From positions 1,637,501 to 1,701,500 of the forward strand of contig JALGPY010000005.1 in NCBI GenBank assembly GCA_023055425.1: a DNA stretch of 64,000 bases, read 5' to 3'. Origin of the DNA: Linanthus parryae (lineage: Eukaryota > Streptophyta > Magnoliopsida > Ericales > Polemoniaceae). Of the stretch, positions 38,886-61,603 are shown piece after piece. Below the pieces are notes generated by a model. That model did no database searches and had not been told where the DNA came from. It was given only the letters and a program-made list of their open reading frames with translations. Both the position numbers and the translations under genes were made by a program. Each line of letters begins with the position of its first letter. Positions within the stretch are counted from its first letter, which is position 1.

Positions 38886-38899
38886 GTCTCCCACTTGCA

Positions 38900-41800: not shown

Positions 41801-42835
41801 AGGCAAAGATAGCTCATAAACGCCTACAGCTAATGCAGCAACCCTTGCTCCATTCCCGACGCGCAAGTCTATCTCCCCTTTTCGCAATCTTCTACTTCTT
41901 TTCAAATCCTGCACATTACGACAAATGTGAGAACCACATCCGGTATCTAATACCCAGGATGATGAAATAGAAAGATTGACGTCTATAACATAAATACCTG
42001 GTGGTGGTGGAATCACTATTCCAAACTTCTTATCCTCCAGATATTTAGGGCAGTTCCTCCTCCAGTGACCCGGCTGGCTGCAATAGTGACATTCACCTTT
42101 AGCCACACCTCCACTAGGCTTTAGGGCTTCCTTGGATTTCGCAACTTTCTTGCGTTTTCCTTTTGAAGTAGATGCAACTGATTTGCCCTTCTTCTTGTGG
42201 ACCATCATTATGGCCTTGCCCTTGCCTTTATTGATGCTTTGCTCAGCTGTCTTTAGCATGTTCAATAAGTCTGGCAAAGACTTGTTGATCTCGTTCATAT
42301 TATAGTTCATGATGAACTGATTATAACTGTCAGGCAACGATTGCAGGACGAGATCAGTCGCCAAGTCCTGGCCGAGTGGGAACCCCAGTCTCTCAAGGTT
42401 CTCTATGTACCCGATCATTCGGAGTACATGAGGGCCTACTGGATTCCCCTCTGCAAGACTGCTTTTGAACAACGCTTTAGACACTTCATAGCGCTCATGC
42501 CTTGCCTGTTCCTGAAACAATTGTTTCAAGTGTATGATCATATCATAGGCTTCCATGTTCTCGTGTTGCTTCTGAAGCTCACTAGTCATGGTACAAAGCA
42601 TGAGGCAAGTCACGTCATTAGAATCATCAACATGTTTCTGACGTGCCCTTACTGCCGCTAGTAGAGACTCATCTTGTGGTGGGTCTGGAATTGGAGTGTC
42701 CAAGACGTACAGCTTCTTTTCTTGCTTGAGGACAATCCTCAAGTTTCTGTACCAGTCAAGGAAATTTGTTCCAGACAATTTATCCTTCTCAAGGACAGAT
42801 CGTAGGGATGAACTCGATGCGTTGTTGTTTGCCAT
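38900..42835 (-). CDS. copia B gag-pol polyprotein, intact
   Basis: A single 1311-residue frame from ATG 42835 (MANNNASSSS); the frame is open 16 codons further upstream. Order: gag; zinc knuckle CHYCSQPGHWRRNC; aspartic protease WVLDTGCGSH; integrase HHCC module (HCRLGH...CESC); integrase core with HTDVCGPF, RSDRGGEY and PQWNGVSERRN supplying D, D and E; reverse transcriptase with YVDDILIIGND; RNase H with GYTDASF, TEAEY and CDNSGA. The C-terminus is [10 protein letters not shown].... All catalytic residues are present. It makes the capsid, enzyme and integration machinery needed for its own copying. Copia A is a broken sister. Confidence 0.95.
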   Translation of the reverse strand: MANNNASSSSLRSVLEKDKLSGTNFLDWYRNLRIVLKQEKKLYVLDTPIPDPPQDESLLAAVRARQKHVDDSNDVTCLMLCTMTSELQKQHENMEAYDMIIHLKQLFQEQARHERYEVSKALFKSSLAEGNPVGPHVLRMIGYIENLERLGFPLGQDLATDLVLQSLPDSYNQFIMNYNMNEINKSLPDLLNMLKTAEQSINKGKGKAIMMVHKKKGKSVASTSKGKRKKVAKSKEALKPSGGVAKGECHYCSQPGHWRRNCPKYLEDKKFGIVIPPPPGIYVIDVNLSISSSWVLDTGCGSHICRNVQDLKRSRRLRKGEIDLRVGNGARVAALAVGVYELSLPSGLILELDNCFYVPAMSRNIISVSCLDEKGFSISIKDKCCSIYFDSMHYCSAHLSNGLYILDLNNPIYNISTKRIKTNDLNPTYLWHCRLGHINEKRISRLHKDGLLDSFDLESYETCESCLLGKMTKSPFNKKGERTSELLALIHTDVCGPFPTPARGGYTYFITFTDDFSRYGFVYLMKAKSESFEFFKEFKSEVEKQLGKSIKALRSDRGGEYLSQEFDEYLRECGIVSQLTPPGTPQWNGVSERRNRTLLDMVRSMMSQTDLPISFWGHALMTAAFTINRVPSKSVIKTPYEIWTGKRPIVSFMKIWGCDVYVKRLQTDKLGPKADKCKFVGYPKETKGYYFYNPTENKVFVARTGVFLERELVSKEASGRVVELEEIHEPQTTEPIMEHEQEPQEVVEEPVQVTQELRRSGRVRHEPERYGLLMTEPDDVPLMDDEPANYGEAMSGPDSKKWLEAMRSEMDSMYTNKVWNLVEPPEGARPIGCKWVFKKKTDMDGKVVAYKGRLVAKGYRQIHGIDYDETFSPVAMTKSIRILLAIAAYYDYEIWQMDVKTAFLYGNLLEDVYMTQPEGFEDPENANKVCKLQRSIYGLKQASRSWNRRFDDAVKEFGFIKNEDEPCVYKKVSGSSIVFLVLYVDDILIIGNDIPTLQSVKDWLGKCFAMKDLGDAAYILGIKIYRDRSKRLLGLSQSTYIDKVLKRFNMQNSKKGFLPMSHGVTLSKNDCPSNEMEKDRMSRIPYASAIGSIMYAMLCTRPDVSYALSMVSRYQSNPGESHWIAVKNILKYLRRTKDVFLIFGGMEELSVNGYTDASFQTDKDDYRSQSGYVFCLNGGAVSWKSSKQGTVADSTTEAEYIAAAEAAKEAVWIKKFITELGVVPSIVDPVELYCDNSGAIAQAKEPRSHQKSKHVLRRFHLIRDMIDRGDVKICKIPTDDNVSDPLTKPLAQRKHEGHAKSIGIRDAPDWL

Positions 42836-44430
42836 TTGAAATTCTACAAAACGAGAAATATGCAATTTAGTATTTTGAAACAATTTAACTATATTTAATA
42901 ACGGCTAGATCATTAAATATAGCTCCCACTATTTTTCTCGGATTAATAGCCCTCACTATTAAAGCGGAAAATATCTTTATATTTTCTAGTGGGTCCAAGA
43001 TCCCTTTTTCACTTCTTCTTGAGCTTGCTTTGGCAAGTCACCCAAGAATTGGTTATTTAGGTAGGAACCATTCCAATTGCATCCCATGCAACTCTTGGTC
43101 CAATTAGGTGAATAAATTCCTTTTATTCTTTATCCAATTGGATAACTCCTAATTGTCATGCCTCTAAGCTCATCAATCCAATTGACTCTTGCCTAGTTGC
43201 GTCCAACCTCTTGCTTTCAACATACACGCATTACTAGCTTGCGTCGTCCGCAACACATCATGAAAAATTAAAATCGCCTTGCTTTGGCAAGCCCGAATTT
43301 TAATAGGCCATGATCATGAAGGGTGTTTTGGCAAGAGAAGGCAAAACGCAATATTTAATTGAGGGATTTCTTTTAATTTGTTTGGTTGATCTTATCAACA
43401 TGGTCTACTTACTTGGATTGGGCCATCCACAATAAAAGACCAACTTTGTTTATTATTATCCTGTTATTGTTTTGCTTGTAGCGCCATACACACAAAATAA
43501 ATAACAAAGGCATGAATAATAAACATCCACAAAATAAAAAAAACGTGGCATGGATATGGCCTCTAGACTAATGATATTATCAAGCCAATGATATTATCTA
43601 ATTGCCCTAAAGTGCCGAGCTCATCTCCATGTGCTCCACCATAGCTGCTCGCCTAGGGATGTCTTTTGGCTCCTTTGGTTCTCCAATCTTCTTCTCCATG
43701 TTCTTGGCTATCATCTAAATATTTCTAATTCTAGCCTAACATCTAGAATAAATAAATAATAAAAGCCTCACATGTCGAGGAGAAAAAGAACGACTCGCAG
43801 GCCGTAAAACTTAATTAATTATTACATTAATTTGATCAGCTCGCAGGCCGTAAACCAAACCACAAAACAATAAACATCCACAATCCTAGGCCATATCCAT
43901 CCACCATGCAATAAAGCACATAATACAGTTAAAACCAATTTTTAACGCGCTTGTTTAATTTTTAGTGAAATTGGGTAACTAGGGTTTCACAACGGTCCAA
44001 AGGGTCCAAGCCAACAAGTGGCCCGAACCCTAGGACCGCCGCACGCCTAGGGAGCCGCGGCCTTGCTTGGCGCGCAAGGGAGGGGCGGGCGGCTAGGGTT
44101 TCGGCCCTAGTCCCCTTCCTCCTTCCTTGTTGCCCAAGCAAGGTTGTTTCCTTATGGATTTAATTCCATAATTTTGTTTCCATAATTGAAAACCCCTTTT
44201 CAATCATGTGCCCATGAACCCTAATTTTTCAAGAACCCAATTATTCACATCCTATGTGATTAAACTCACCAATTCTAACATCCAATGTTAAATTGGGTCT
44301 TGTTTGATTAAATCAAATTCAATATTGCATCTACTATGCCAATTTTTCAGTTTTCGCGTAATAAACAATAATACGGTGTATGAACTGAAATCGTAAACAC
44401 ATAATATCATGTTATGCTCTACGACCTGTG
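42836..44430 (-). other. 5' leader of copia B
   Basis: Non-coding sequence between primer site and gag, matching copia A's leader. No gene is seen. Confidence 0.6.
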
Positions 44431-44442
44431 GCTCTGATACCA
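44431..44442 (-). promoter_or_regulatory. primer binding site of copia B
   Basis: TGGTATCAGAGC on the minus strand, one base from the LTR end. Confidence 0.88.
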
Positions 44443-44443
44443 C

Positions 44444-45879
44444 TGTTGGGTTTTGATGTAGGTAACGCAGCGGAATAACAAAATTAATCCTACTCAAAGC
44501 CCACCAAGGATCACAGGAAGAGACATCATAACATGATTAAGGACATAGAAGATGTGTACCTTTTTGATTTGTGAGATCACACGAAGAATGATGTCCTCGT
44601 CTCTACGGTTGATCCACGTCTAGAGGTGAGATCTAGATTCTTCCTTCAATCAAGTGCTAGCTTGAACCTTGGAGGAAGAGGGATGAAGATCAAAGCAACA
44701 AAGCAACAAGGCAACAAAGGAGGGGCGGCCTCCTTCTTGCCGTCGGGTAGAGGGGCGGACGGGGCTAGGGTTTCGGCCCTAGCTCTTGTCTTGCTCTCTC
44801 TTTTTGCTCTCTCCCACTCTTTGTGTGTTATGATTAATAACTCATGTTGTGGGAAGGAACCTAGAGCCTCCTTTATATACTCCAACAACTCCTTGTTGTT
44901 TCCATAAAAGAGTTTTCTTGTTCTAGTAGGACTAGAACTATTCCCTTCCTTGCAAATTAGTCCCACTAAGTTTGCAAGGTGTTGCACAATGATCCTTCTA
45001 TTAATTAATCCATATTAATTAATCCCAAATCTAGCTCTACTCTATTTGACGTGTGAACCCATAGGTTTCTATATAGTTGTAGTAACTATTACTAACATGG
45101 AGCGGTGTCTAGCAACACATCCATGCAACCCAACCAATAGAAATAGTCAGTGATCCCGACAAACCTTTGTGCCCAATATGTCATATTGCATTATCCCTTT
45201 GTCTCCATATCCGGATTGGACACGAGACATAAATAGTCACACTCGTATATCCAATCCATAGTTCCTCGATCCTGGGAATATGCTTATGCTTGCAGATAAC
45301 ATTAATATCTCCATATTAATTTATCTGAGTCTGGCCAGACATTCAATAAGCCTCATCCCTCGAGTGGCCGTGGATATTTACCCCCATTATGTGGGAGGGA
45401 CAAATCCTATCTACATCACTACGATCTCTAAGCTTGCTTCCTATCACGCCCGCTAGTCACCTTTATGATTACCCAGTTACGGTGTAACGTTTGATAACAT
45501 CAAAGCGCAATATTTCACAACTAGAGTATCTAGTGACTTCAAGTCTAAGGATTGCAATAATATTAGCACTACGAAAAGCGATTGTGACTTCACATAATCT
45601 AATGTATCCTTTTCGTTGTGGGTCAATCCAGTATGCCATTACTCCTAATGCATACCCATGTGTTAGACTTGATATCTCCATATCAATCTACCCACATACT
45701 AGTCTATATTTGATTGTCCTATTGATCAATATAATTGACTAGGGATATTTAAGATAAATAACACAATTTATCTAAGGACTTCATTATATTAAATATCGCC
45801 ATAAATAATAAATGAATATTCTAGCCAAAACATTGTTCATACTAAATCTACGATTGCCTCTAGGGCATCTATTCCAACA
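44444..45879 (-). repeat. 5' LTR of copia B
   Basis: 1436 bp, same length as its partner, with at least eight scattered substitutions. Confidence 0.93.
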
Positions 45880-45884
45880 ATCAA

Positions 45885-46219
45885 TGGTTGTAAGGTTATT
45901 GCATTTCAAAGTATTACACAACCTCTCAAATGCAGGCTTTGACATGATGCTTCAAATTTTTAAAAGAAGATGCTTCAAATTTTTAAAGAAGTTCTTATAA
46001 TCAGGAGCCATGGGTATGCACAAAGGAACCTTCATTTATTTTGTCAACCTTGATTGATGGGCCTAAGGCTCCTGGACAAGACATTGATGTCTACCTTCAG
46101 CCATTGATTGAAGAACTTAAGGAATTTTGGAACAAAGGTGTAGCAACATACGATGCGGCAAGTAATGAAATGTTTCAGTTGCGTGCATATATTTTGTGGA
46201 CTATCAATGATTTTCCAGC
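45885..46219 (+). pseudogene. CACTA TNP2-type transposase, middle segment
   Basis: It resumes directly after copia B: MVVRLLHFKVLHNLSNAGFD, then a 22-bp tandem duplication (gatgcttcaaatttttaaa) that scrambles the frame. A large part of the family's catalytic region is missing. It then reads PWVCTKEPSFILSTLIDGPK, DIDVYLQPLIEELKEFW and MFQLRAYILWTINDFP up to gypsy C. The loss between 'NLSNAGFD' and 'PWVCTKEP' is hundreds of residues in intact relatives, so this gene was defective independently of the insertions. Confidence 0.82.
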
Positions 46220-46845
46220 TATGCACAAGAGATTCCGGCAGGGAGACCTCCGTGTACACCGTACGTAGTGGATCAGGGATCGCACAGGAAGAATAGGGGT
46301 GTGTGTAGGGAGAGAGTAAGTCAGTAGCAATGTCTGAGAGAGAGACAGAGGTTTGGCAGAGCTTCCGCGTATGGCAGTGTTGTTCTCCTTTTTATGGAAA
46401 GGTTAACGATGTATATATACTGGAGAACGTGACCGTTGTAGTGTGGTTAATGCGCCCATTAATGGCGGCTTAATTAGCTTAACCATAACGGCACGTTCGT
46501 CCGAGTATATAGGAACCGTTAGAGCACGTGGTGCGCAAGTACCGGAACCGTTACGAGGTTGACCGGGTTTGACCGGATTGACCGGGTCTAGGGAGCTCGT
46601 GCCATAAATCTCTCAAAACAGTTACTAAAGGTCGCGCGCGGGCTTGGCTCGCACGCGACAGGGCTTACTCTAGCCTCCAAACCACAAGTCCCTACAAGTC
46701 CCGTGCAGTGGTATGCGAGGGCTCTGTCTCGCAGCCCCCACATGGATCAGCTCGGCTGGTGATCCTGTGTGTGTGGAGCACAATATGGTGTGCTGGATGG
46801 TTGCCACGTGGCCTAGATCTGCCATGTCATAAAGCAGTATCTACA
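46220..46845 (-). repeat. 3' LTR of gypsy C
   Basis: It begins TGTAGATACTGC on the minus strand just after the tract cagaaagggggctaa. It ends ...GTGCATA, where the partner ends ...GTGCACA. It holds three W-box-type TTGACC motifs (46559, 46569, 46578) and a TATATATA on the element's sense strand near 46412. Confidence 0.95.
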
Positions 46846-46862
46846 TTAGCCCCCTTTCTGCG
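46846..46862 (-). promoter_or_regulatory. polypurine tract of gypsy C
   Basis: On the minus strand, cagaaagggggctaa runs directly into the 3' LTR start, the expected plus-strand primer for reverse transcription. Confidence 0.75.
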
Positions 46863-46980
46863 CGTGAAGGCTTGTAGCTGTATAGGCTTCCATGCGCGGA
46901 AACCAACATGCGCGTCGTCGTCACGTACCAATTCAAATACGGGTAGATTCAGCCCCCGTGCGCGTAATTATGACCTAAAA

Positions 46981-47114
46981 CCCCTAGAGTCGTGCCATCT
47001 GACCTTTAGGGTTTTAGGCGTGACGTCAGCCCGTCCTGTGATTGCGCGACACGACGGTGACGGTTGCGATTCGACTACTGAAGGGACGCAACCCTTCATT
47101 CTTCTGGATAAATA
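46981..47114 (+). promoter_or_regulatory. candidate promoter of the antisense gene
   Basis: Plus-strand elements upstream of the first exon: a telo-box-like ttagggttt (about 47007), a perfect TGACGTCA palindrome (47021-47028, bZIP type) and ATAAATA (47108-47114). They lie inside the element but outside the LTR, so the gene need not depend on the LTR promoter, which fires the other way. This is inference from motifs. Confidence 0.45.
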
Positions 47115-47269
47115 CCTTGTATCCCATCATTGCAAGGCATTGCTTCTTTCTCTTAAAGTGAATGGTACCCGGAGATCTTCGAGAGCAGATCCAAATAATC
47201 AATCATCAGTTCAAGACTGCAAATCGTATTCTTCAATTGTGCATCTCCAAGCAGGCTTCAAGGAAACAA

Positions 47270-47531
47270 GGTTGGCCTCGTTTACTTTTTGATTTTAAAA
47301 TTCCGGCGTTTGTCTTGAACTGCGTTGAATCTGTAAACTCATGAAATCTGTGAAGAGGCTTTGATCTTTAAACCCGCTTCGCTTTACTCTTTCGACGATA
47401 TTGGATCTTGCAATTACCCAATTTCTGAAATCGGCACCGGAACTGTTTGCATTCCTTTGCATAAGTCTCGAATTCAAAATTCAAACTGACTGGTGTGGTA
47501 TTTCTCCCCCCCTTTTTTTGCCCTTTCGCAG
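47270..47531 (+). other. probable 5' UTR intron of the antisense gene
   Basis: The right edge is a strong acceptor (long pyrimidine tract, then ttcgcag) two bases before the ATG. A possible donor is gttggcc after 'aggaaacaag' near 47270. The donor is weak and uncertain. Confidence 0.4.
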
Positions 47532-47533
47532 GA

Positions 47534-50500
47534 ATGGCCAAAACAAGGGTAACCAGACCCGTCAAGGAAGATGAAGAGATGCCGGAGCTTCCGCAGTCTC
47601 TGTGGCGAAAAGCCCCCTTTCTGGGTGGGAAAGATTTTTACCACGCGAGGGTGAAGGCGAAGAGGATGCCTGATCCTGTTCCCGTTGAGCGGTTGTTGAC
47701 ACTGACTCGCCCAGTTAACTCAGCCTTGCTCGAGTTAGTTGGCTCCGAGGATGTGGTTCGATTGGGAATCGAGAACGGGCACTTCCCATACACTGCGATT
47801 TCTACTCAGGCGTTTGTCCAGAAGTTGGACTATATGGATGAGTGGACTGACCACGTGTTGGGTAATTACGCCGAAACTCTTGATGAAGCCGGCATTTTCT
47901 TTGCTGTTCGTGCTATGAAGGGTGCTGCCGTGAAGTTGGATCAGTCCATGCTTCTAGACCTTCTGTCCCGCTATTCGCCTGCGACTCACACGTTTCACTT
48001 TGCTGAGTTCGAGGCTGCCCCCACGCTCGAGGACGTTCAGATGCTGTATGAGCTTTCCCCCACGGGCGAGGTGGACCCCTTGAGTCACTTAAGGACATCT
48101 GCGGAATTAGCCTTGTACGCGCAGATGGAGGAGTGCCTAGCAGAGGTGAAGAAAATTTCCACTCGGTGGACCAGTACAAAACCTCTTCCGAACTGGCAGC
48201 TGGTTGATACGTCCGCGAAGAATACCTGGAACAAGTGGTTGCAGTACTTCTTCCGAGACTATGCGAGCAGCAGCATTACTAAGAAGCTTTTGAGCGAGGA
48301 CCCGGAGGCCGAGAATTACGTAGAGGGCAAGGGTTATCATTTGACCCTTTGCGCCTTTCTCTGCGCTTGGCTGTCGAGGTATCTGATTGATGGTCACCCC
48401 CATGATGGGGTCTTCTACCATGTGCTGCCACTTGCCGTGAGGCTCGCTCTTGGCCAGAGAGTCGCACTTGGACCCTTGGTCTTGGGAACGCTATATTACA
48501 GGCTGGATCAGCTGGTTCTGGCGATGAGGGAATCGCGTGGCCGCCTCGATGTTCTGACCTTTGTCAATATCAGCTTTTTGACAATGTGGGTTTTCGAGCG
48601 TTGGCCGTCTTATGCTCCAACTCCCCTCCCACTTGAGAAGTGGTGTCCCCCAGGCGAGACGAAAGCGCTCAACAGCGGAAGGGCTGCGAGATGGTTCGGG
48701 GCAAGCAACACCAAGTGTACTTGGAGCTTGATATGCGACAAGCGAAGGGAGTTCACTGCCAGGCCTTACGCCACACGTGTTGAGAATGTGCGGTGGTTTC
48801 CGAAGCTATACCCCTCCGAAGGTATGGTCTTGTCAGAAGACCTTCTTTTTGAAAAGGGACCGCATTTCCACGAGCGCTATCGTGAGTTCTTTTGCTGGTG
48901 TCTGCGGGGTTCTCTTCCTGCACTTGCAGAGCATATTCGTGAGCTCGCGCCACGATATGAAAGGCTTACAGTGGATGTTGACCCCACTCGGGTCTCTCCT
49001 CAGTTTGGTTTCGATGCGGTGGCCCCATCAATCTGGCCCCAGTCTATCGTTAGAGGGTGCTACAAGCGCTTGCTGACAAAGGAATGCAAGACGGTCCTTA
49101 TGAGCAATCTTCCCTTTGAGCAGCCTGCGGGAACTCGCAGGGGTGGTTGTTCCCAGAATTGGATCGCATACTGGATTGCCCAGCATACGAGGATGGAGAC
49201 GGAGGCGGCGGCGCAGCCAGGAAGGGCCCCCTTGATCAAGAGAAACTCTTTTCCGTTTCGCCCCAATTGCAGTTTGAGCGAGTCTGAGTACGGTTGCTAC
49301 TCGTTGTTGGACCGCGAGAATCATTTGTGCCCCGATTTCATTCTGAAGGAGCAGGTCGATGCAATCAAGAAGGGTGACACGCAGGTCATCAAATATAGCA
49401 AGGCGTTTGCTGAGGTAAGCAGTTTCCTTGTGTGCTTTGAGCTCTTTGATTTGCTTGCACTGATGCTTTTTGTTCTGTATTGTCTAGTGTCATGTGCGGA
49501 GGTTCGCAGCTGGTGACCGTTCCAAATCGCTGGTGGATACCATTGTTGCGACCAGAAGAAGGGGGGAGTCGTATCGGCTAGCATGGAGGATGGATGCCGA
49601 GGTCGAAACAAAAGTTCGCGGGGTCATGAACACTTTTGCTGACTCGCTGATAGACAACCCTCCGGCTCCGTCTCCTCCTAGAGATGACCCGTCCCCTCCA
49701 GCGACTGCGGCGCCGAGAGCGAAGAGGCCTAGGCAAAAGGGGATTACGATTTCTTCCCCTAGGAGCGCTCCAGCTTCGCCCCCAGCGAGGTCCCTTTCTG
49801 TCAAGGACAAAGGTAAGGGTCGTATGCCCGGCAAGGTGCGAAAAGATCTCGCAGTTGAAACCTTCGTTCCATTCAATCAAGAGGAAGAGGAAGAGAGGCA
49901 GGAGCCCCAAGCAAGTAATGAAGAAGAAGAAGAAGGAACAGTTGTGATGCGCGAGGAAGAGTCAGGAGGTACTTCCGCCGCATTTTCTTGTCCTTTATCA
50001 CAACTTCTATGCAGTTCTTTTCTTTGAACCAATTGTATATTCGCAGGTGATGATGATGAAGCCGTTGGTGGCCTCGTGGCCAAGAGGCAAAAGAGAAATG
50101 CCCATGCTGGCGTTTCAGATGATCCCATAAGCGAGGATGTTCTTGCTGAATCCCGGAAGACAGCCGCGGAGGCTGCTGCGAGAAGAAGGCAGCGAGAGGA
50201 AGAGGAACTCGAGCTTGTGAAACAGCGGAGCCTCGAGGAGCGGCATGTTGACGACTTAGCGCGTCCAACTGGCGAGGAAGACGAGCTTCTCGAAGAAGTG
50301 GCTCCTCATGTGGAGGAGGAAGATGAGGTTCCTGGAGAGGACACAGCAGAGCTAGAGCAAGTCCAAGCGGACTTCGCAGAGATCGCAGGTGGCGATAAAG
50401 GTGAGATCTTCAATCTCGCAGTTACTTATAGAGATGTAATTGTGGGTGCGTTAAAGCACGGTGTGTCAAAGCCTGACATTCGCCGTTGGTTGGTAAGCAA

Positions 50501-51818
50501 ATGCGGAGAACCCTCAGGTAATTATTTTGAGTGATATGCGCATACTAGGCTTTAGTCACTTGAAGCAAAATCATGACTGGTTCACTCGCGTCCCAGGTCA
50601 CGCTTCTCTTAAAGATTTGCTTAGTGAAGATACACTGATAGGGCACGGTTCCACGTCCCTAGTGTACGATGAGGATACCTTAATCCCACCTTCGCGTGGA
50701 GGTGCTTATTCTTAGCTTTAGCAAAGATAGTGAAATAACTTATAACACAAGTTACCTCATATTGTCGCATTTGGTATCGCAGGTCATGCTGAGGAACCTG
50801 AGCTGGAGCAGAGAAGTCAGCCTTCTGCATCCCATGTTCCAATCTCGAGCTCTCATACTGAGAAGCCCGTCGCGGACGCTGGACATGTAAGTGAGCGTCT
50901 CGAGGATGTCATCGAGCTCTCCGATGATGTCGAAGCTGATGCTGTGCGGATGGACGAAAGTGTCCGTACTGGTGGTGAGGAGGAAAGGACAAGCGATGCT
51001 GCCATTTCCGCATCCGGGAATGTCCGTCCAGCGGCCTCGGTTGTGCCTCCGGCGATGACTGAGCCAGGAGCACCCATTCCTGCGTGGAGCATTTGGGGCT
51101 CGCAGGTTGGGAATGTAATCGCAGCTGGTGCAGCTTACACTCTTCCTCCTAACTATGAGAGTTTGGAGCTCGCAGCTGATAGGAGAGCCATGGAGCGAGG
51201 GCAGTCTTCGAACAACCCGGTGGCTCGCATTCCTTCTATTCATGAAATTCTGGAAGGGACCGGTAAGCAGAGATTTTACCATTCGTACGTCGCATTATTT
51301 GCTTGCTGGTTTTGACATCATGACTTTTTTTTGACGTCTCAGGTTTGAAGCAAACCGATGTAGACTGGGTGGTTCGAATGCGCCTCAGATACCCCCGATC
51401 GTTTGTGAGGTGTCTGGAGATCAGTCCTTTTGACAGGAGGCTATTCCTTACTGAAGCCATCTGGATACTAGAGCAGCTGTGTGCGGCTACACCTGCGACC
51501 ATTTCGGCCCAGAGTGCTGAATTGCTGTGTGGCATGTGCCAAAATCTCGTGCTCAAAGTCCAAGGTAGACTTGGCTTTAAATTCCTCAAGGACAGAGTTA
51601 CACTGATTCGCGCAGCTGTAACTTTGAATCTCGGTCACCAGAATCTCGCAGCTGAGATGCAGAAGGTGGAGCAGCAAAAGCAAAAGGTTGATGAAGCTGT
51701 AAAGCTGTATCAGGAAATGAATGCCAAGTGCGAGCAACTGAAGCAAGAAGTGAAACAAGTGGAGAAGCTGAGCGAGCAGTTCGCACCCCAGGACTCCTTA
51801 GTCAAAAATTTGTTTTGA
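47534..51818 (+). CDS. plant mobile domain protein carried antisense in gypsy C, six exons
   Basis: Exons: 47534-49414, 49488-49968, 50047-50517, 50597-50701, 50783-51262, 51343-51818. The sum is 3894 nt, an exact multiple of three, with no internal stop (about 1297 residues). All five introns are GT...AG and 73-81 nt long. Exon 1 carries the plant mobile domain (PMD, aminotransferase-like; MAIN/MAIL1 family): LLSRYSPATHTFHFAEFEAA, PTLEDVQMLYELSP, then W-rich blocks to about residue 560. Exons 2-5 are charged and proline-rich with acidic runs. Exon 6 ends in a coiled coil (about 51655-51785). Host PMD proteins act in gene silencing and genome stability, and PMD genes are known passengers of gypsy and MuDR elements. 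A role in evading host silencing is inference. No LTR-element enzyme is encoded on this strand. Confidence 0.82.
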
Positions 51819-53329
51819 CTTTCCGAATTTTTGAAAAGAAAACAGGAAAATGGCTGAGACATTAATGTAATGTTTTGAACATTAATGTGATATTGCTAGG
51901 GTTTCTCCCCCTTCTTTTTTTAACAACAAACAATGAGTTTGCCCGTTTTGCCCCTTTCGGGATTTGATTGGACATTTCTGTGCATATCCAATTATGACAT
52001 CAGCAATTGATTCTTTGCTTGATTTTCGCGCTAATTTCTCGGCAGATAAGCACGCTTCCGTTGGGAAGTCCATCCGAATCATGACTATCCGTCATTTATT
52101 AGGATACGCAACTGAATCGTCGTAGCCTTTAGTAGGGTAATTGATTGTTACCGCTTTTCAAGGCGTAAGTGATTGAACTTACCCTCTTTTTGAATTTGCT
52201 GACTCATCTTAAGCAACCGAAGAGTCTCTACAGGGCCTATATAAACCCTGCCTTTGTCATTTGGGTTCTTCATCCCAAACATGTGCTTTTCCGTGAGTCC
52301 TTGCGACTGCTGGCTTCAACGCTTGTTTTTCGTTGATTCATGGCAACTTCAAGCTTTGAATCCTGAGTTTGCGCTTTGTGCTATAGAAATAGTTTCCAAG
52401 ATCCACTTTATGAGGCTTATTGCTGTTTATAACCGTCATAAAGAGGATGCAGATAATACCTCATGTGTGTTCGAAGAAATTTCTTCGTGTATTATGTGTG
52501 CAGGTCATGTTTCCGGCCGCCTCGTGGCGAGGTGCAGCGCCGTAGTGACCGTGCTACCGTCTCGTAATGAACGGCGTGATTCTTCTTCAGCAGTGATGAA
52601 GAAGAATCCGTCACTTTCATGTTTGTGAGCCCGGGGTGACGAACCGTCACATTCATCCCCGTCTACAAGGAGCCCTTGCCCTTTGGAGCTGCTGCTTGCC
52701 TGTAGATCGCCGGAACCGGTGGCTCCTTGGGCAAATGTTATGGGGAGCCTATCTGACAACGGTCTTGTCGGATAGCAGAATGTCGAGCGTATGGTTTCAT
52801 GTGGCTCTTTTCAGAGCGAGATCCCCTTTGCTACAGATGTCACCCACAGATTTGGGCATCGTGTAGCCGGCGCTCGAAGCCAGGGCGGTTCATTCTTTGC
52901 AGTCCGGGTTTCCGTATCACGTTTCTGCTGGCTTATCAGCCATTTTTCGAATGTATTGTAAGCCATGTTGGCTGTGTAGTTAGATGCGAGCTTTTCGCTT
53001 GTAAGCTGCTATCTAGATAGACAAATTGTAAGTCATTTGACTCATAATGATAAATAGTATTTGTATCAGTTGTTCTTTGCAACAAAATACAATTTCGCAT
53101 GCATTTCGGCTTGTTTTGCCTTGCATAATGACATGTAATGATTTCACATATGCGATGTCAATTTACAGATATTTCGCTAGATCATTCGAGATCGTTTTTT
53201 CGCAGCTGTGCCATCTTGACGGATGGGCTTGTAGTTGGTCGTTGTAAATCGTATGAGATCACGTTCACAACGTTGTTATCGTTCCAGATAATCTTCCAGA
53301 GATCAATCAAGATCGTTGAGCTGTGCAAA
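51819..53329 (+). other. spacer between antisense gene and repeat array
   Basis: It contains a plus-strand TATATAAA (52238-52245), a 12-bp perfect hairpin (52578-52589 with 52597-52608), a short gtgacg/cgtcac hairpin near 52638-52650 and a palindrome-rich GC block (cctcgtggcgagg). A 124-codon frame at 52254 has no recognisable motif. It could hold a short non-coding transcript; no protein gene is supported. Confidence 0.4.
52238..52245 (+). promoter_or_regulatory. possible second plus-strand TATA box
   Basis: TATATAAA in the context gggcctatataaaccctgcc, followed by a C/T-rich start-like region. No convincing coding frame follows, so any product may be non-coding RNA reading toward the repeat array. 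Confidence 0.35.
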
Positions 53330-54345
53330 TTGCTATCATAGAAGATAGGCTTTGTTTGAGATCGTTTCTCGCATAAACTGCTATCACAGCAGACAGATCT
53401 TTAGAAGATCTAATAAGATAACTCTGCACTCGTGTTGCCATCATATAAGACGGGTTTGGATAATTAACCAAAATTGCTATCGTAACAGATAGGCTTGAGA
53501 AGATCATTATAAGATCGCATCTGTATAACCTGCTATCCCAAGAGATAGGCGTTAGATGATCGATTGAGATCATTTTTGTATTTCGCTGCTATCGCAAAAG
53601 ATAGGCTTTGGATGATCATGTAAGATCGTGTTTTCGTTTGGGTGCTATCGCAAGAGATAGGCTTTAATGATCACTTAAGATCGTATTTGTATTTGATTGC
53701 TACCGTGAGAGATAGGCTTTAAATGACCACTTAAGATCGCATTTGCGTTTGGCTGCTATCGCAAGAGATAGGCTTTAATGATCACTTAAGATCGCATTTG
53801 CATTTGGCTGCTATCGCAAGAGATAGGCTTTAATGATCACTTAAGATCGCATTTGCATCTGATTGCTACCATGGGAGATAGGCTTTAGATGATCACTTAA
53901 GATCGCATTTGCATTTGATTGCTACCGTAAGAGATAGGCTTTAATGATCACTTAAGATCACATTTGTAGTGGCTGCCATCGTAGGAGATGGGCTTTAGAT
54001 GATCACTTAAGATCGCATTTGTGTTTGGCTGCTATCGTAAAAGATAGGCTTTAGGTGATCGATTGAGATCGCGTTTGCTATCATATGAGATAGGCTTTGA
54101 TGATCAATTAAGATCGCGTTCGCTATCGTAAGAGATAGGCTTTGATGATCATTTAAGATCGCGTTCGCTATCGTAAGAGATAGGCTTTGATGATCAGTTA
54201 AGATCGCGTTCGCTATCGTAAGGGATAGGCTTTGATGATCATTTAAGATCACGTTCGCTATCGTAAGAGATAGGCTTTGATGATTAGTTAAGATCGCGTT
54301 CGCTATCGTAAGGGATAGGCTTCGATGATCATTTAAGATCGTGTT
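53330..54345. repeat. tandem repeat array of gypsy C (about 20 units)
   Basis: Each unit contains gctatcgtaagagataggctt and gatcatttaagatcg variants. Left units are about 55 bp and diverged. Right units (54122, 54167, 54212, 54257, 54302) are spaced exactly 45 bp and nearly identical. Every unit holds two small palindromes: ctatc...gatag and gatc...gatc. Tandem repeats in this region are common in Tat/Ogre elements. Confidence 0.88.
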
Positions 54346-54580
54346 TACATTTGTTACTATTGAAGCGCATAAATCATTGTTAACAGTTGTAACAAATTAG
54401 ATAATCGATATAAACAGCTGATAAATGTGAACTTCTCATTTGGGAGAATTCTTTTATTATGACATTCTCATATGGGAGAGATAGGATTACAATCCTCTCA
54501 TATGGGAGAGGAGATTGCAAATATCGTAGCCACATGAGACATTAAGCAACGTTATCATAAAACGTATGAAACAAGAGAAG
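54346..54580. other. pol 3' untranslated spacer
   Basis: It holds three copies of a ctcatatgggagag motif (near 54436, 54468 and 54497). No gene. Confidence 0.5.
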
Positions 54581-57500
54581 TCAGGGATAGTACTTCTTGA
54601 TCCAGCGCATGTTGACTGAGCTTGGAGTTGAGGTTGTGCCGTGCAACCTTCGTATGCTGCAGTAGCCGCTATCGAAGACTTCTGTGACTTCGAAGGGTCC
54701 CTCCCAATTAGCTGCGAACTTTGGGTGGGTTGCCTCTCGCATGCAGTGATCAGATGCGCGCAAGACCAGGTCGCCAACTGCGAAATCCCGTCGCTGAACT
54801 GTCTTGTTATAGGCGCGAGCGATTCTTTCTTGGTACCGCTTGTTAGTCCTTTTGGCTTGTTCTCGCTTTTCTTCCAGCAAGACTAAATCATGATCGCGTT
54901 GGTTTTCATAGAGCGCGTGGAAGGCCAGCCTTGCCGAATTGACTCTGACCTCCGCAGGTACCACAGCTTCGGCCCCATAACATAGTAGAAATGGCGAGGC
55001 CCCTGTGGGTGTCCTTGGAGAAGTTCTGTAGGCCCACAGAGCCATGTTAAGAGAGTCGGCCCACTTCTTGTGGTCATCTGCGACCATCTTGCTCAGAATT
55101 CTCAGCAGCGTTTTGTTAGTCGCCTCGGCTTGCCCGTTTCCCTTTGGATAATAGGGGGTAGAGCATATCTGTCTGATATTGTACTCCGCAAGTTTTGTAG
55201 CTACCTGACGATTAACAAAAGGAGTACCGTTATCTGAAAGAATAGTATTCGGGATTCCGAACCTGCATATGATGTTTTCCTGGATGAAGTTGACCACAGC
55301 CAGCGCGTTTGCCGTCTTCAGTGGTATTGCTTCCACCCATTTGGTGAACAGCTCGGTTGCGGTGAGAATAAAATGGTTCCCATGTGACGTTGGTCGGATG
55401 GGGCCAATGAAGTCCAAAGCCCATGTGTGAAATGGCCATGGCGTTCCTAGTGCATGTAGGTCCACGGCGGGAGCGTGCACTAGGTTCCCCTTGAATTGAC
55501 ATTCTTGGCAGTGTCGCACCTTGGTGCGGCAATCGACTTCCATCGTGGGCCAGAAGTATCCAATTGAGAGAAGCTGTCTGCATAATTTCGCACCTCCCTG
55601 GTGTTCCACCTGGTGGGAGAGGTCCATGACTTCTTGTGCTTCCCTTTCGTCTAGGCATCGCAGCAAGTTGCCTTCGTGACCTTTTCGCCAAAGCAGATTT
55701 TCTTGAACTACATATCGAGAAGCTTTCCTCTTCAATTTGCCTGCCTCTTTTCTCGATTCGGGTACAGTGCCCTTGGTGAGGAATTCAAACAATGGCTTTC
55801 TCCAGTCTGTGTCGTCGTCGATTAGAGCGACAAGAAGAGAATCTTTGATTAGTGCGCAACTTTCGCACTTCCCTTGTATCAGGGCTGCGGCTGTAGACAT
55901 GCTTGGCCAATGGATGCCGTATCTCTGAGCTTTCCTGTAGATTGACACCTCGCTTTCTCCGCAAGCGTGTTGGTGAATCTTTTCTAACAGCTGTTGTCCC
56001 TCTTGCTCGGAGACGCAACGCATGAGTATTCCTCCGGGACCCTTGTAGTAAAGGGTGTTGTCGTGGATACAGTATCCTTTCGTGAGTGCCCAGCCCTCGC
56101 TGCTGGTGCCTTTCGCAATAGCTTGCAGGATTGCTTTTCGCCAGTCTGCGTCATCCATGTGTTCGTCGTCGCACGCATCTTCTGTTAATGCCGACGATGT
56201 TCGCACTTCGATGGAAATCCTTGCGGGGCATTTGTCTATGCTGACCTTAGATCCCAGAGTTGCTAAGGCATCTGCATGCCTGTTGTCCGCTCGGGGTTTG
56301 TGCTCGTATTTCACGTCGCAGAATTGCTGCATCAGCTTTTGCACTAGGGTGCGGTATGGTAGGAGGTTGATCTCCTTTAAACCATATTCGCCCGAGGCCT
56401 GTTTAACAATCAGTTTGGAATCTCCCATGACTGTTAAGTTGCTCACTTCCAAAGCTTTCGCCGCACGGAGTCCCGCGATCAGAGCCTCGTATTCCGCCTC
56501 GTTGTTCGTGACTGCGAAGTTGAGTTTCGCGGACATCTGTATGACTTCCCCGTCCGGCTTTGTCAAGACTATCCCAATGCCTCCGCCTTTTCTGGTTGAC
56601 GAACCATCGAAGTGGAGGGTCCAATAGGGCACGTCGATCGCGTAGATTTCAGGGCCTTCGAGTTCTTCCTCGATCACAGGTTCGTGACTGTTGTCGGGAA
56701 ACTGTGCCAGCAGATCTGCTACCGCCTGCGACTTGATCGCTCTTGGTTTTACGCATGTGATATCGTATTGAGAGATGGTCATGTACCATTTCGCCAATCT
56801 CCCGCCCGGAGTAGTGTGAGTTAGCAGGTATCTTATGGGGTCGCTTTTGGTGACCACCACTACTTTGTGCGATGCAAAATAGTGTCTCAACTTCTCTATT
56901 ACAAAGAATAAGGCAAGGCAATGACGTTCGATGTCCGTGTACCTTGATTCAGCAGGCTGCACAATGCGAGAGATGTAATAGATAGGCCTCTCTTGTCCCT
57001 CATATACCTGGGCCAAGAGTGCTCCTATAGATCTCCTTGTTGATGTAAGATATAGCAGCAGCGGCGATCCCAGTTGAGGCGCGATCATAATCTTCGGGGA
57101 TGTAAGTATCTCCTTTAGCTTTTCGAATGCCGCTTCATGGTCAGGAGCCCAGTTGTACGCGGCGTCCTTCCTGAGAAGAGTGCTGAAACAGCATGTGATT
57201 TCGGCGATTGCCGGGATGAATCTCCGCAGATATGACAATTTTCCCAAGAATGTTTTCAAGGTACTTTGATCTTGAGGTGGTGTCATGCTGGTGATGGCTG
57301 ACACTTTCGCAGGGTCAGGCTCGATTCCTTGGCGATGGACTACGCATCCCAGAAACTTCCCCGAAGTCACGCCGAACGCGCATTTCATGGGGTTCATTTT
57401 CAGTTGAAAGCTCCTGCATCTGTTGAATACCTTTCGCAGGTCTGCAAGGTGATCTGCTTCATGCCTGGATTTGACTACCAGGTCATCCACATAGAATTCC

Positions 57501-58186
57501 ACTTCTTTGTGCATCATGTCGTGGAATAGGGCCATCATGGCCCGCTGATAGGTTGCGCCTGCATTCTTAAGACCGAATGGCATTACCGTATAGTTGAATA
57601 CCCCCACGGGAGTGATGAATGCAGTTTTCCTTGCATCTTCGGGATCCATCTTGATTTGATTGTACCCGCTGAAGCCGTCCATGAAACTGAACATGCGATG
57701 GCCTGCTGTTGAATCAATGAGTAAATCGATGTTAGGCAGCGGGAAATCGTCCTTAGGACAGAAGCGATTAAGATCTCGGAAGTCCACGCAGATGCGGAGC
57801 TGTCCGTTCTTCTTCACCACTGGCACGATGTTGGCCAACCATGTGGGATGGTGATTGGGCTCTATGAACTTGGCATCTAGGAGTTTGACAATCTCCTGTT
57901 TGATCTTCACGTTGAGCTCTGGCCTAAAGCTTCTGGTGCTTTGCTTGACCGGTTTAGACCCTGGGATGATGTCTAAACGGTGCATGGTGATGCTCGTGTC
58001 CAGACCCGGCATCTCGTCGTATTCCCATGCGAACACGTCCTTGTATTCAGTTAGGAGCTGCAGCAGTCCTTGTTCCTCTTCGCTTGTGAGGTCCGCACTC
58101 AGGAAGACTGGTTTTTTCTTTTCCTCGTTCGGGCTGAGGAACACTTCCTTAAGCTCTTGCTTTTGTGGTCTTGGCCTGTCTTCCAT
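54581..58186 (-). CDS. gypsy C pol: reverse transcriptase, two RNase H, integrase
   Basis: 1201 residues from the methionine at 58186; the same frame is open upstream to the UGA that ends gag. Reverse transcriptase spans about 60-300 with CVDFRDLN, MPFGLKNAGATYQR and catalytic YVDD (232-235). A first RNase H (about 365-500) is followed by a second, archaeal-type RNase H (about 522-645: HFDGSS, NNEAEYEAL, MGDSKL, RHADALA). The second RNase H is diagnostic of the Tat lineage. Two zinc-module-like repeats follow (about 681-780 and 793-900). The integrase core has D925, D985 and E1021. No chromodomain is visible. The C-terminus is close to the tandem array. The frame is intact, matching the very young LTRs. 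Confidence 0.94.
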   Translation of the reverse strand: MEDRPRPQKQELKEVFLSPNEEKKKPVFLSADLTSEEEQGLLQLLTEYKDVFAWEYDEMPGLDTSITMHRLDIIPGSKPVKQSTRSFRPELNVKIKQEIVKLLDAKFIEPNHHPTWLANIVPVVKKNGQLRICVDFRDLNRFCPKDDFPLPNIDLLIDSTAGHRMFSFMDGFSGYNQIKMDPEDARKTAFITPVGVFNYTVMPFGLKNAGATYQRAMMALFHDMMHKEVEFYVDDLVVKSRHEADHLADLRKVFNRCRSFQLKMNPMKCAFGVTSGKFLGCVVHRQGIEPDPAKVSAITSMTPPQDQSTLKTFLGKLSYLRRFIPAIAEITCCFSTLLRKDAAYNWAPDHEAAFEKLKEILTSPKIMIAPQLGSPLLLYLTSTRRSIGALLAQVYEGQERPIYYISRIVQPAESRYTDIERHCLALFFVIEKLRHYFASHKVVVVTKSDPIRYLLTHTTPGGRLAKWYMTISQYDITCVKPRAIKSQAVADLLAQFPDNSHEPVIEEELEGPEIYAIDVPYWTLHFDGSSTRKGGGIGIVLTKPDGEVIQMSAKLNFAVTNNEAEYEALIAGLRAAKALEVSNLTVMGDSKLIVKQASGEYGLKEINLLPYRTLVQKLMQQFCDVKYEHKPRADNRHADALATLGSKVSIDKCPARISIEVRTSSALTEDACDDEHMDDADWRKAILQAIAKGTSSEGWALTKGYCIHDNTLYYKGPGGILMRCVSEQEGQQLLEKIHQHACGESEVSIYRKAQRYGIHWPSMSTAAALIQGKCESCALIKDSLLVALIDDDTDWRKPLFEFLTKGTVPESRKEAGKLKRKASRYVVQENLLWRKGHEGNLLRCLDEREAQEVMDLSHQVEHQGGAKLCRQLLSIGYFWPTMEVDCRTKVRHCQECQFKGNLVHAPAVDLHALGTPWPFHTWALDFIGPIRPTSHGNHFILTATELFTKWVEAIPLKTANALAVVNFIQENIICRFGIPNTILSDNGTPFVNRQVATKLAEYNIRQICSTPYYPKGNGQAEATNKTLLRILSKMVADDHKKWADSLNMALWAYRTSPRTPTGASPFLLCYGAEAVVPAEVRVNSARLAFHALYENQRDHDLVLLEEKREQAKRTNKRYQERIARAYNKTVQRRDFAVGDLVLRASDHCMREATHPKFAANWEGPFEVTEVFDSGYCSIRRLHGTTSTPSSVNMRWIKKYYP

Positions 58187-58318
58187 GCATTCGGGGGCTT
58201 CTTTAAGTTTCTCCTCTGGAATGCCCTGTGTTGGCTCTTCTGTGAGCGCAACTTGCTCGATTTGATTGATTTGCCCAGGGACATCCCCATGCCCGTGTGA
58301 GGACGTCCCCGCGCACCT

Positions 58319-60931
58319 TCATATGCGATAGCATTTCTTCCCGTTGGCGTAGAAGCTCTCTATCTCCTTGCCCTCGGGGTCGTGCTTTGCGATCCTCTTC
58401 AGAGTGTAGACACTCTTGCGATGATATGCGATGCGCGGCGCCTCTTCGTGGGTAGGCGGCTTTTCTTCGGTGTCTCCCCTTGTCACCATCACGCCTGCAG
58501 GTGACTGGTCCTTGATGTCCTCCCAGAGAGGTAAAGGAGTAGGGTTGAATGGTCCGGGTGTTTGCTCGTCCGCCATCTCGGTGAACCACACCGCCTCGCT
58601 GAGATGCGCTTCGTCCAAGTTGAACGGGTTAGTTGAGGCCGGTATCTCGACAATCCTGTCGTTCCAGATAGCTTTCATCACTTGGTGAGCCGTTGAAGGG
58701 ATTGCGTCGAAGCGATGAATCCAGGCCCGACCTATGATCATGTGGTATGTGGTGTTCGCGTCTATGACATAGAACTTCGCCGAGCACTTGATTCTGCCGA
58801 TCTGAACGCCCAGGCGGATCCACCCGATCGTCATTCTGGAATCGCTTCCGAATCCCACCAGCGGGGATGGACGCTTGACTACCTTGTGCTCGGGGATCCC
58901 TGCTAGCTTCAGTGTGTGGAGTGGAACAACATTGACCGCTGCTCCTCCATCGACGAATGCTCGCTTGAATTCGACGCCGTTGATGATGGCGGTCACGTAC
59001 AGGGGCCTCTGGTGGCTCGCATCTGTCTTTTTGTCGCTGGCAGAGAAGGTCATAATCTTTTCTGTGGAACGGGACGCCCTGACGACTTTCCCGTTGGAGA
59101 CCACGAGGTCCTCCTCGTAGTCCTCTGCTACCCTTAAGATTGCTTTTGTCATGTCCGCTCGACATTTTTCGGAGAAGTTCATCTCGTTGAAGAATCTGTC
59201 GAAGCCGTGCGACCCTTTCATGCGGTCGGCACGCTCATCTTCCGTGTCCATGCTGTAGTCTTCATCTTCATGGACTTCAGCAACGATGGGCAGACCATCC
59301 TCTGCGACTTCTTCCAAGTCGACTATCGAGATCATGGCGACCTCTTTGCCTTTTGAGCCCGAATCTGTATGGGCAGGCAGCGGGTTGTTGCGCACATCCT
59401 TCCGATGGTCGCTGACGATGAGTTCGCCGCTCTTCATCTTCTGATCGAGTGCGAATCTGAGCTTCTTGCACTCGGCTGTGGGGTGCATGACCTTGCCGTG
59501 GTATTCGCACCACTTAGGGTCCCTCGTCATCTCCTTGGAGGGTGCTTTCTCGAGCGGTGGGAGGACGCCGTCCTTACGCCACTGTCTGCAGAGATCGCTT
59601 GCCTCCTCCACCGAGCAGGGCAGGGGCGGTGCGTCGAAGTTTGTAACTTTTGCTTGCTTCTGGGGCGAAACTGCATTGACCTCAGCTTCGCGTCCTCGCT
59701 TGTAGCCGAATCTGCCGATCTTGTAGGTGGTGCCGCTCGCAGGTCGTTCTGGAGCGCTCTTCTTTCTCTGTCTCTCGACGATGGGCTCGATGTTCATCGT
59801 GCACTCGATGAGCTTTGAAAATGTGGGTGTTTGCAAATTGATTAGCATGCTCTTGTACTCATCTCGCATGCACTGCAGGCATATCTCTACGAGCCGACTC
59901 TCGAGCATTGGGTCCTTGCATTCTAAGGATTTCGCTCTGAATTTCTTGATGAAAGTGATTCCATCTTCCTCGCGTTTCTGATACATCCGCGAGAGGTGGA
60001 TCATCGTCACCTTCTCTTCCATCTGGAAGAACTTGGTGTAGAACTTCTGGACCATGTCGTCCCAAGTCTTCACAGATCCGGGCTCCAACGTCCGGTACCA
60101 TTTGTATGCTACATTCCCAAGAGTCTTTGGGAACTCTCGCATCAGCAGTTTGGGATCAGCTCCGTATGGACCCATGACATCGATGAAACGCATGACATGC
60201 TCATGGGCGTTTCCATTGACGTCTTCGAACTTGTCCCATTTGGGAGCCTTGTACCCTGCCGGGTTAGGCATGAGATAAATTTCTCGTGGGATGGGTGGAT
60301 CGTTGTCTAGCTTCGGGATGATGGTATCCGCGAGCGATTGATGAGCTAGGATGGAGTCCACGCGCTTCTGCAAGGATGTCATGCATTCTGGGAGGCTTCC
60401 CTCGGTAGCTGCCGGAGGGGCTGCCGTAGGCGGTGGCGATACATATGTTGCCGGAGGATTGAGAGTGTATTGGCTACCCGCGTTTCCCCATATGGTCGCC
60501 GGTGGAGGCAGAGTGTACTGCAAAGTTGGGTTAGACGCCAAAGCCGTGGGCTGAGAGGCGTGAGCGGCAGGGGGTAGCATTTGCGCTGTTGATCCTTGGA
60601 TCGAAGGCAGCTGCGCGGCAGACGGTGGAGTTTGCAGATGAGGGTTGGGAGGCGTGGCCGATACTCCCAATCCTGGAGCAGTAGGGGTTCCTCCTCCCTG
60701 AGGGGTGGCGGTACCTGGTGGAGGATTTGGCGCAAGGGTGCCCAGAACGGCCAAGATCCGCTCCAACTGCGCAGATTGAGACTTGAGAGCTTTTGCCTGA
60801 CTTTGGACAGTGGCGTCCAAAGACTCCAAAGTTGGTGCCTCGCCGGGAGTCGTCGGAGTACGGCGGACTTCGTCTCCCGAGGGAGTTTCGGTGGAAGGCG
60901 ACCGGTTGCTGACATCATCCTCCTGAGACAT
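58319..60931 (-). CDS. gypsy C gag-protease
   Basis: 870 residues from ATG 60931. It has a proline-rich N-terminus and a helical TLESLDATVQSQAKALKSQ segment. The gag core is about 225-390 (KWDKFEDVNGNAHEHVMRFI; WYRTLEPGSVKTWDDMVQKF), with a CX3H...C knuckle-like motif (CEYHGKVMHPTAEC, 475-488). The aspartic protease is near 643-740 with VDGGAAVNVV (D661) and IIGRAWIH. DGG instead of DTG/DSG is usual in some gypsy proteases. The frame ends in UGA at 58319-58321, but the pol frame continues directly in the same phase. Confidence 0.93.
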   Translation of the reverse strand: MSQEDDVSNRSPSTETPSGDEVRRTPTTPGEAPTLESLDATVQSQAKALKSQSAQLERILAVLGTLAPNPPPGTATPQGGGTPTAPGLGVSATPPNPHLQTPPSAAQLPSIQGSTAQMLPPAAHASQPTALASNPTLQYTLPPPATIWGNAGSQYTLNPPATYVSPPPTAAPPAATEGSLPECMTSLQKRVDSILAHQSLADTIIPKLDNDPPIPREIYLMPNPAGYKAPKWDKFEDVNGNAHEHVMRFIDVMGPYGADPKLLMREFPKTLGNVAYKWYRTLEPGSVKTWDDMVQKFYTKFFQMEEKVTMIHLSRMYQKREEDGITFIKKFRAKSLECKDPMLESRLVEICLQCMRDEYKSMLINLQTPTFSKLIECTMNIEPIVERQRKKSAPERPASGTTYKIGRFGYKRGREAEVNAVSPQKQAKVTNFDAPPLPCSVEEASDLCRQWRKDGVLPPLEKAPSKEMTRDPKWCEYHGKVMHPTAECKKLRFALDQKMKSGELIVSDHRKDVRNNPLPAHTDSGSKGKEVAMISIVDLEEVAEDGLPIVAEVHEDEDYSMDTEDERADRMKGSHGFDRFFNEMNFSEKCRADMTKAILRVAEDYEEDLVVSNGKVVRASRSTEKIMTFSASDKKTDASHQRPLYVTAIINGVEFKRAFVDGGAAVNVVPLHTLKLAGIPEHKVVKRPSPLVGFGSDSRMTIGWIRLGVQIGRIKCSAKFYVIDANTTYHMIIGRAWIHRFDAIPSTAHQVMKAIWNDRIVEIPASTNPFNLDEAHLSEAVWFTEMADEQTPGPFNPTPLPLWEDIKDQSPAGVMVTRGDTEEKPPTHEEAPRIAYHRKSVYTLKRIAKHDPEGKEIESFYANGKKCYRI

Positions 60932-60946
60932 GGTTGCTTTTGCTGG

Positions 60947-60972
60947 TAAGATTCACGTCGGGTTCACCAAAA
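60947..60972 (-). promoter_or_regulatory. primer binding site of gypsy C
   Basis: On the minus strand the LTR end is followed by TTT and TGGTGAACCCGACGTGAA. The complement ends ...GGGTTCACCA as a tRNA acceptor end would. Gypsy D uses the same site. I do not assign the tRNA. Confidence 0.75.
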
Positions 60973-61598
60973 TGTGCACAAGAGATTCCGGCAGGGAGAC
61001 CTCCGTGTACACCGTACGTAGTGGATCAGGGATCGCACAGGAAGAATAGGGGTGTGTGTAGGGAGAGAGTAAGTCAGTAGCAATGTCTGAGAGAGAGACA
61101 GAGGTTTGGCAGAGCTTCCGCGTATGGCAGTGTTGTTCTCCTTTTTATGGAAAGGTTAACGATGTATATATACTGGAGAACGTGACCGTTGTAGTGTGGT
61201 TAATGCGCCCATTAATGGCGGCTTAATTAGCTTAACCATAACGGCACGTTCGTCCGAGTATATAGGAACCGTTAGAGCACGTGGTGCGCAAGTACCGGAA
61301 CCGTTACGAGGTTGACCGGGTTTGACCGGATTGACCGGGTCTAGGGAGCTCGTGCCATAAATCTCTCAAAACAGTTACTAAAGGTCGCGCGCGGGCTTGG
61401 CTCGCACGCGACAGGGCTTACTCTAGCCTCCAAACCACAAGTCCCTACAAGTCCCGTGCAGTGGTATGCGAGGGCTCTGTCTCGCAGCCCCCACATGGAT
61501 CAGCTCGGCTGGTGATCCTGTGTGTGTGGAGCACAATATGGTGTGCTGGATGGTTGCCACGTGGCCTAGATCTGCCATGTCATAAAGCAGTATCTACA
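60973..61598 (-). repeat. 5' LTR of gypsy C
   Basis: It looks identical by eye to 46220-46845 apart from the terminal dinucleotide. The sense-strand TATATATA (61165-61172) is the likely core promoter, and three TTGACC motifs lie nearby. Confidence 0.95.
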
Positions 61599-61603
61599 CC
61601 AGC

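Follow-up and report, generated by a model that had tools for sequence, protein, structure and literature searches.

A multi-exon plant mobile domain gene lying antisense in a young Tat-clade retrotransposon of Linanthus parryae, and its probable role as an accessory gene of the element

Introduction

A plant mobile domain (PMD) is found in proteins of plant retrotransposons as well as in proteins that act in host silencing. A 64,000-nucleotide stretch of a Linanthus parryae contig (hereafter the window) raises the question of what a PMD gene with several introns is doing inside an LTR retrotransposon: is it a working part of the element, a host gene caught in passing, or an artefact of exon choice? 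A first-pass annotation, made from the sequence alone, had described an intact six-exon gene on the strand opposite to a very young Tat element, and had proposed that it encodes an accessory protein which travels with active copies, perhaps blunting host silencing. Here we examine the structure of the gene and its element, the copies of both in the genome, the selection acting on the protein, and the systems to which the arrangement can be compared; published work is cited from the portions of text available to us.

Structure of the gene

The joined exons (47534-51818, plus strand) add up to 3,894 nt and encode a protein of 1,297 aa, the sole stop being the terminal codon, and every one of the five introns (73-81 nt) starts with GT and ends with AG, so that the exon model of the first-pass annotation stands. 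GC content is 49-56% in the exons and 35-42% in the introns. The longest open run comprises 660 codons, whereas none of 200 dinucleotide-preserving shuffles exceeded 210; when up to five introns were allowed, the best spliced open frame reached 3,896 nt in the real sequence and at most 1,076 nt in 25 shuffles. In a Pfam profile search, exon 1 matched the PMD profile (PF10536) over residues 127-498 with 91.8 bits (E 6.2e-26), well above the curated cut-off of 34.9 bits, which assigns the protein to the PMD family by profile score and agrees with the PMD signature already noticed in this exon. The shuffle controls, the profile match and the conservation reported below refute the reading that the open frame arose by chance or through the way exons were chosen, the probability of which is negligible.

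Exons 2 and 3 encode hydrophilic linkers. Two features were absent from the earlier account, namely an in-frame alternative donor at 50401 within exon 3 and what is likely an intron in the leader, with its acceptor ending two bases upstream of the ATG (Table 1). The motif TATATAAA is found at 52238-52245 on the plus strand, between the 3' end of the gene and the tandem array, and could represent a second antisense start. The PMD protein had no match in PDB, either by sequence or by profile, and a single-sequence AlphaFold model of exon 1 was meaningless (mean pLDDT 35).

Table 1. Positions of the PMD gene, its presumed promoter and leader, and the parts of the element that carries it, numbered from the first base of the window
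Feature	Position	Strand	Remarks
Whole Tat-clade LTR retrotransposon carrying the gene	46222..61598	-	Identical LTRs; gag and pol domains
3' LTR, 624 bp	46222..46845	-	624/624 bases identical to 60975-61598
Likely polypurine tract adjoining the 3' LTR	46850..46859	-	Read from sequence
TATA-like box of presumed internal antisense promoter	47106..47116	+	GGATAAATACC, unchanged in 28/30 copies
Presumed 5' leader intron	47271..47531	+	Donor GT kept in 30/30 copies, acceptor in 29/30
Exon 1	47534..49414	+	627 codons; contains the PMD domain, residues 127-498
Exon 2	49488..49968	+	NLS-like motif at residue 706
Exon 3	50047..50517	+	Acidic linker with an NLS-like motif (residue 800); sequence near neutral
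Exon 4	50597..50701	+
Exon 5	50783..51262	+	pN/pS 0.14-0.17 vs L063 and L064
Exon 6	51343..51818	+	Holds the stop; C-terminal region, weak coiled-coil-type matches
Tandem array between gene and pol, units of ~56 and 45 bp	53475..54345	.
pol: RT, RNase H, second RNase H-like domain, integrase	54581..58318	-
gag	58319..60931	-	Weak protease match; terminal TGA in frame with pol
Likely primer binding site	60952..60969	-	Begins TGG; read from sequence
5' LTR	60975..61598	-

The element carrying the gene

The element has two LTRs and a pol in the order RT, RNase H and integrase, as expected for a Ty3/gypsy LTR retrotransposon. An RVT_3 domain (pol residues 570-687) sits between RNase H (418-518) and integrase (890-941). 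Since an archaeal-type RNase H in this place characterizes the angiosperm type of the Tat clade, following the definition given in the consulted part of PMC6317226, the second RNase H-like domain assigns the element to Tat, as the first-pass annotation had it. The PMD gene lies wholly between pol and the 3' LTR, antisense to the minus-strand element; the region between pol and the 3' LTR spans 7,735 bp of an internal region of 14,129 bp.

The very young age proposed for this insertion is borne out by the LTR pair, which shows no differences and gives a 95% upper age of about 0.18 or 0.37 million years under substitution rates of 1.3e-8 or 6.5e-9, respectively. The element is flanked by CCAGC on either side (46215-46219 and 61599-61603), two additional bases being present on the left. 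The insertion site is a CACTA-type transposase gene, of which the left flank (45987-46221) matches Transposase_21 (E 4e-33), and no Pfam match was obtained for the right flank piece 61936-62553. Scans of the 64-kb window for tRNAs and Rfam families gave no matches.

Some further observations concern the coding regions and the surroundings of the element. A single in-frame TGA (58319-58321) separates the open gag and pol frames, and gag ends at the same codon in two other copies (L065 and L066). In pol, a zinc-binding region is duplicated before the integrase (residues 728-834 and 841-953, 27% identical over 116 columns), and only the second of the two matches Pfam Integrase_H2C2. A young copia element neighbours the Tat element (37444-45879), with an open frame of 1,334 aa (38900-42904, minus strand) and flanking repeats 99.3% identical over 1,442 bases; related sequence is also present at 25509-30910.

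Copies in the genome

Copies were searched in the window's own 1.51-Gb genome. A first look with exon 1 yielded 17,326 candidates, a figure that is not a copy count, and the best 70 were scored: all of these were at least 99% identical to the window gene and 68 were without a stop. The left flanks differ in 30/30 copies, indicating separate insertions. These counts already weigh against the gene being a passenger, that is, a host gene recently caught by one copy and of no role for the element, a reading for which it can be said that PMD genes also occur outside this family, some of them in gene-like arrays. For exon 6, none of the best 150 of 10,169 candidates contained a stop.

The association with pol was followed in the best 37 of 50,187 pol candidates. 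A listed PMD copy lay within 12 kb of 22 of the 37, and it was antisense to pol in 22/22 of these pairs among the matches listed. The distance from the end of pol to the ATG was 6.7-7.5 kb in 21 of the listed pairs and 4.2 kb in one. In this last copy (G000:C1:95069070-95076967) the distance of 4,163 bp means that part of the region is missing; exon 1 is still open. Among the 15 pol copies without a partner in the listed exon 1 matches, four were read, and in all four the gene was in place and antisense.

The whole gene was inspected in 20 sisters taken from the 69 other rows of the exon 1 listing, and 18 of them retained the full frame and five GT..AG introns; the total coding length of these 18 varied by multiples of three and their introns by 1 or 2 bases. 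The two broken sisters carry a frameshift (L043) and a deletion in exons 5-6 (L045). Of four copies picked by pol alone, three were intact and one (L063) has a single stop. Introns 1-4 were GT..AG in all 30 of a set of shorter loci, in which exons 2-4 held three frame-breaking and three frame-keeping indels. The sampling favoured top-scoring, mostly young copies over decayed and older ones, and the proportion of intact copies in it is not to be taken as that of the whole family. Within this sample, the frame-breaking changes in most sisters that would have spoken against the first-pass annotation were not seen, and the gene does travel with recently active copies, as had been proposed.

Selection on the protein

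Variants were counted in 19 intact copies including the window gene, leaving out the broken L043 and L045. Exons 2-6, which played no part in the choice of copies, carried 71 synonymous and 71 nonsynonymous variants, compared to a neutral expectation of 2.21 nonsynonymous per synonymous variant based on the spectrum of mutations in the LTR, the leader and the introns (p 3e-6); exon 1 counts are biased, as copies were ranked by exon 1. Variants common to several copies were more skewed, with 18 synonymous and 7 nonsynonymous changes in exons 2-6.

Two pol-picked copies about 5% divergent from the window (L063, with its stop codon skipped, and L064) allowed dN/dS to be estimated, with values of 0.058 and 0.055 in exon 1 and of 0.162 and 0.172 in exons 2-6, respectively, and with p values against the neutral ratio from 2e-9 to 1e-20; dN/dS is thus well below 1 in both parts of the gene. 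In the PMD domain the corresponding ratios, 0.033 and 0.038, are flattered, since synonymous divergence is uneven along the gene and reaches 0.21 in this domain, compared to an intron divergence of 0.05 and 0.07; PMD dN itself was 0.007 and 0.008, about 0.09 and 0.18 of the intron divergence. The two closest pol-picked copies (L061 and L062) gave whole-gene values of 0.26 and 0.27, on 28 and 23 changes. For gag, dN/dS against the window was 0.041 (L065, from the same element as L063) and 0.098 (L066, from the same element as L064). Exon 1 is thus about as constrained as gag and exons 2-6 are somewhat less so, exon 3 being near neutral. As a separate observation, L063 differs from the window with a dS of 0.15 in the PMD gene and of 0.024 in gag of the same element (L065), a contrast which suggests recombination between subfamilies.

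Constraint of this kind shows that the protein has been useful to the element. It also bears on the proposal that the antisense RNA is the working product, pairing with genomic RNA and feeding into small RNAs by which transposition is limited or tuned. The gene sequence is the complement of a 3' portion of the genomic RNA, 175 phasiRNA loci have been reported at PMD genes in tea (PMC10673657, available portion), and the accessible text of PMC7264820 names this possibility for antisense ORFs; an RNA-only role, however, leaves the scarcity of nonsynonymous changes, the open frame of 1,297 codons and the kept splice sites unexplained, and we regard it as improbable. Antisense RNA may act in addition to the protein.

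Relatives and other PMD genes

Subfamilies about 80% and about 50% identical in protein were compared with the window gene over exon 1 and, in L068, over intron 1 as well; the comparison with L071 extended over 419 residues. In the relatives about 80% identical, exon 1 dN/dS was 0.087 and 0.080, values that are uncertain with dS above 1. In L068, 50% identical in protein, the donor of intron 1 falls at the same codon as in the window gene, with a plausible acceptor, read by eye, about 70 bases downstream; judging from this shared position, the intron 1 donor predates the split between the two. In a tree of PMD sequences, built without named references and accompanied by long-branch warnings, the window gene falls together with L051, L068 and L070, all from the same genome, with support of 100/99. 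No relatives outside this genome were found in a large protein set, in viral_contigs or in genome_contigs, collections that were not built from plant sequences.

Dense arrays of PMD matches at G000:C57:126.33-127.71 Mb and C46:154.94-155.87 Mb, scoring from about 100 to 377 bits and including many long open frames, look like host gene clusters. The sampled gene-like PMDs are distant from the element's gene, L058 (from the first array, on C57) being 24% and L059 23% identical to it. Taken with the existence of the two more closely related subfamilies and with the strong constraint, this leaves the passenger explanation very unlikely indeed; within the reach of the copy and selection data, both the passenger and the host-gene reading are refuted.

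The locus L051 (G000:C57:122938400-122940600) contains a PMD frame that is open and shares 31.6% identity with exon 1 across 538 aa. Among the scored matches listed for it, only the self match exceeds 48% identity, with one decayed relative at 48%, and no clear pol is found where the layout of the window element would place one; L051 could be a domesticated copy.

Comparison with known systems

The type of gene is already known in outline. The PMD-A1/A2 clades correspond to PMD extra ORFs of Ty3/gypsy elements (PMC5418596), and PMD was reported in 57% of Ogre elements (PMC6317226), both as given in the parts of these sources consulted. Like them, the window gene is an additional gene of a Tat-clade element that matches the PMD profile, a feature that is frequent in Ogre and does not define it; the window gene differs in having six exons and in lying antisense between pol and the 3' LTR. 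The cited accounts give neither position nor introns for PMD ORFs in the text available.

Ogre elements have their extra ORF upstream of gag. In the window element no extra ORF takes this place, the gag ATG lying 43 bases inside the 5' LTR.

The antisense genes (aORF-3R) of Retand, Grande and RIRE2 share both place and orientation with the window gene, and a tandem array occurs in the same region. According to the portions consulted, these genes mostly encode TRP28, whereas the window gene encodes a PMD protein and has five introns. TRP28 (PF04195) was reported in the antisense gene of 97% of Retand clusters (PMC11963269, available text); a profile search for PF04195 gave no match in exon 1 or in the full 1,297-aa protein. 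Across the genome, TRP28 gave 0 matches with 31/31 candidates scored, which does not imply its absence since control genomes were equally silent. Both size measures of the window element given above exceed those reported for Retand in the same source (internal region 7,380-12,869 bp, pol to 3' LTR 2,933-6,566 bp), which are observed ranges and not strict definitions.

Likeness to MAIN and MAIL1 of Arabidopsis (PMD-C), host genes described in the sources consulted as acting in silencing with PP7L, consists of the PMD domain, by profile only. A further parallel, by analogy only, is provided by the anti-silencing protein VANC of the VANDAL elements, where an accessory protein encoded by the element is likewise combined with a noncoding tandem array in the same element, and where VANC proteins are reported to bind this repeated noncoding DNA of the element that encodes them (PMC10398659, in part). 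VANDAL is a DNA transposon and VANC belongs to another protein family. In the literature searched, mostly by title and the start of the abstract, no description of a multi-exon antisense PMD gene was recognised, and novelty is not claimed; the accessible part of PMC7264820 calls for the study of antisense and spliced transcripts.

Possible role of the gene and origin of its arrangement

With nonsynonymous change far below the neutral expectation and most sampled copies intact, the proposal that this is an accessory gene of the element holds well. We consider it highly probable that it is a selected accessory gene of an abundant, recently active Tat-clade family, with introns protected by their antisense placement. 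Transcription of the gene would start at a promoter of its own, immediately internal to the 3' LTR, and be followed by splicing; the product of the gene would be a nuclear PMD protein aiding the persistence or transposition of the element. On the genomic RNA the introns read CT..AC, so the spliceosome should not remove them; from what is generally known of splicing, antisense placement would let the introns survive passage through genomic RNA, and may be the reason why they are retained across the RNA passage at each transposition.

As for the molecular role, the most likely candidate, tentatively held, is nuclear interference with host PMD-dependent silencing of the MAIN/MAIL1/PP7L type, or else the lifting of silencing from the chromatin of the element itself. 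The idea that elements may make PMD proteins as a counter-silencing measure has already been published (PMC8616336, consulted in part). About as likely is a role of the PMD protein in the element's own cycle, in LTR transcription, nuclear import or RNA handling, like retroviral accessory proteins; this possible role draws on the same constraint data and on the NLS-like motifs of exons 2 and 3, and the available parts of PMC7264820 and PMC11963269 discuss in such terms the antisense accessory genes that other Tat elements carry. The present data do not separate the two roles. A more specific version of the anti-silencing role, which we find rather doubtful, is an intron-containing antisense counter-silencing gene whose PMD product acts on the tandem array of its own element or titrates the PMD-phosphatase complex of the host, antisense placement being a stable way for a retroelement to keep a spliced regulatory gene through RNA replication.

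The arrangement also concerns how such genes are catalogued. ORF surveys have used minimum lengths of at least 250 codons (PMC6317226) or at least 600 bp (PMC11963269), according to the text consulted, and surveys of this kind would be expected to recover exon 1 of such a gene and to overlook the other five, which are shorter. Given a large number of near-identical intact copies, a constraint on exon 1 like that on gag, and defined junctions, the function of an element-borne PMD protein becomes directly testable in this family, which also illustrates a way in which a retroelement could retain introns in a gene obliged to pass through RNA.
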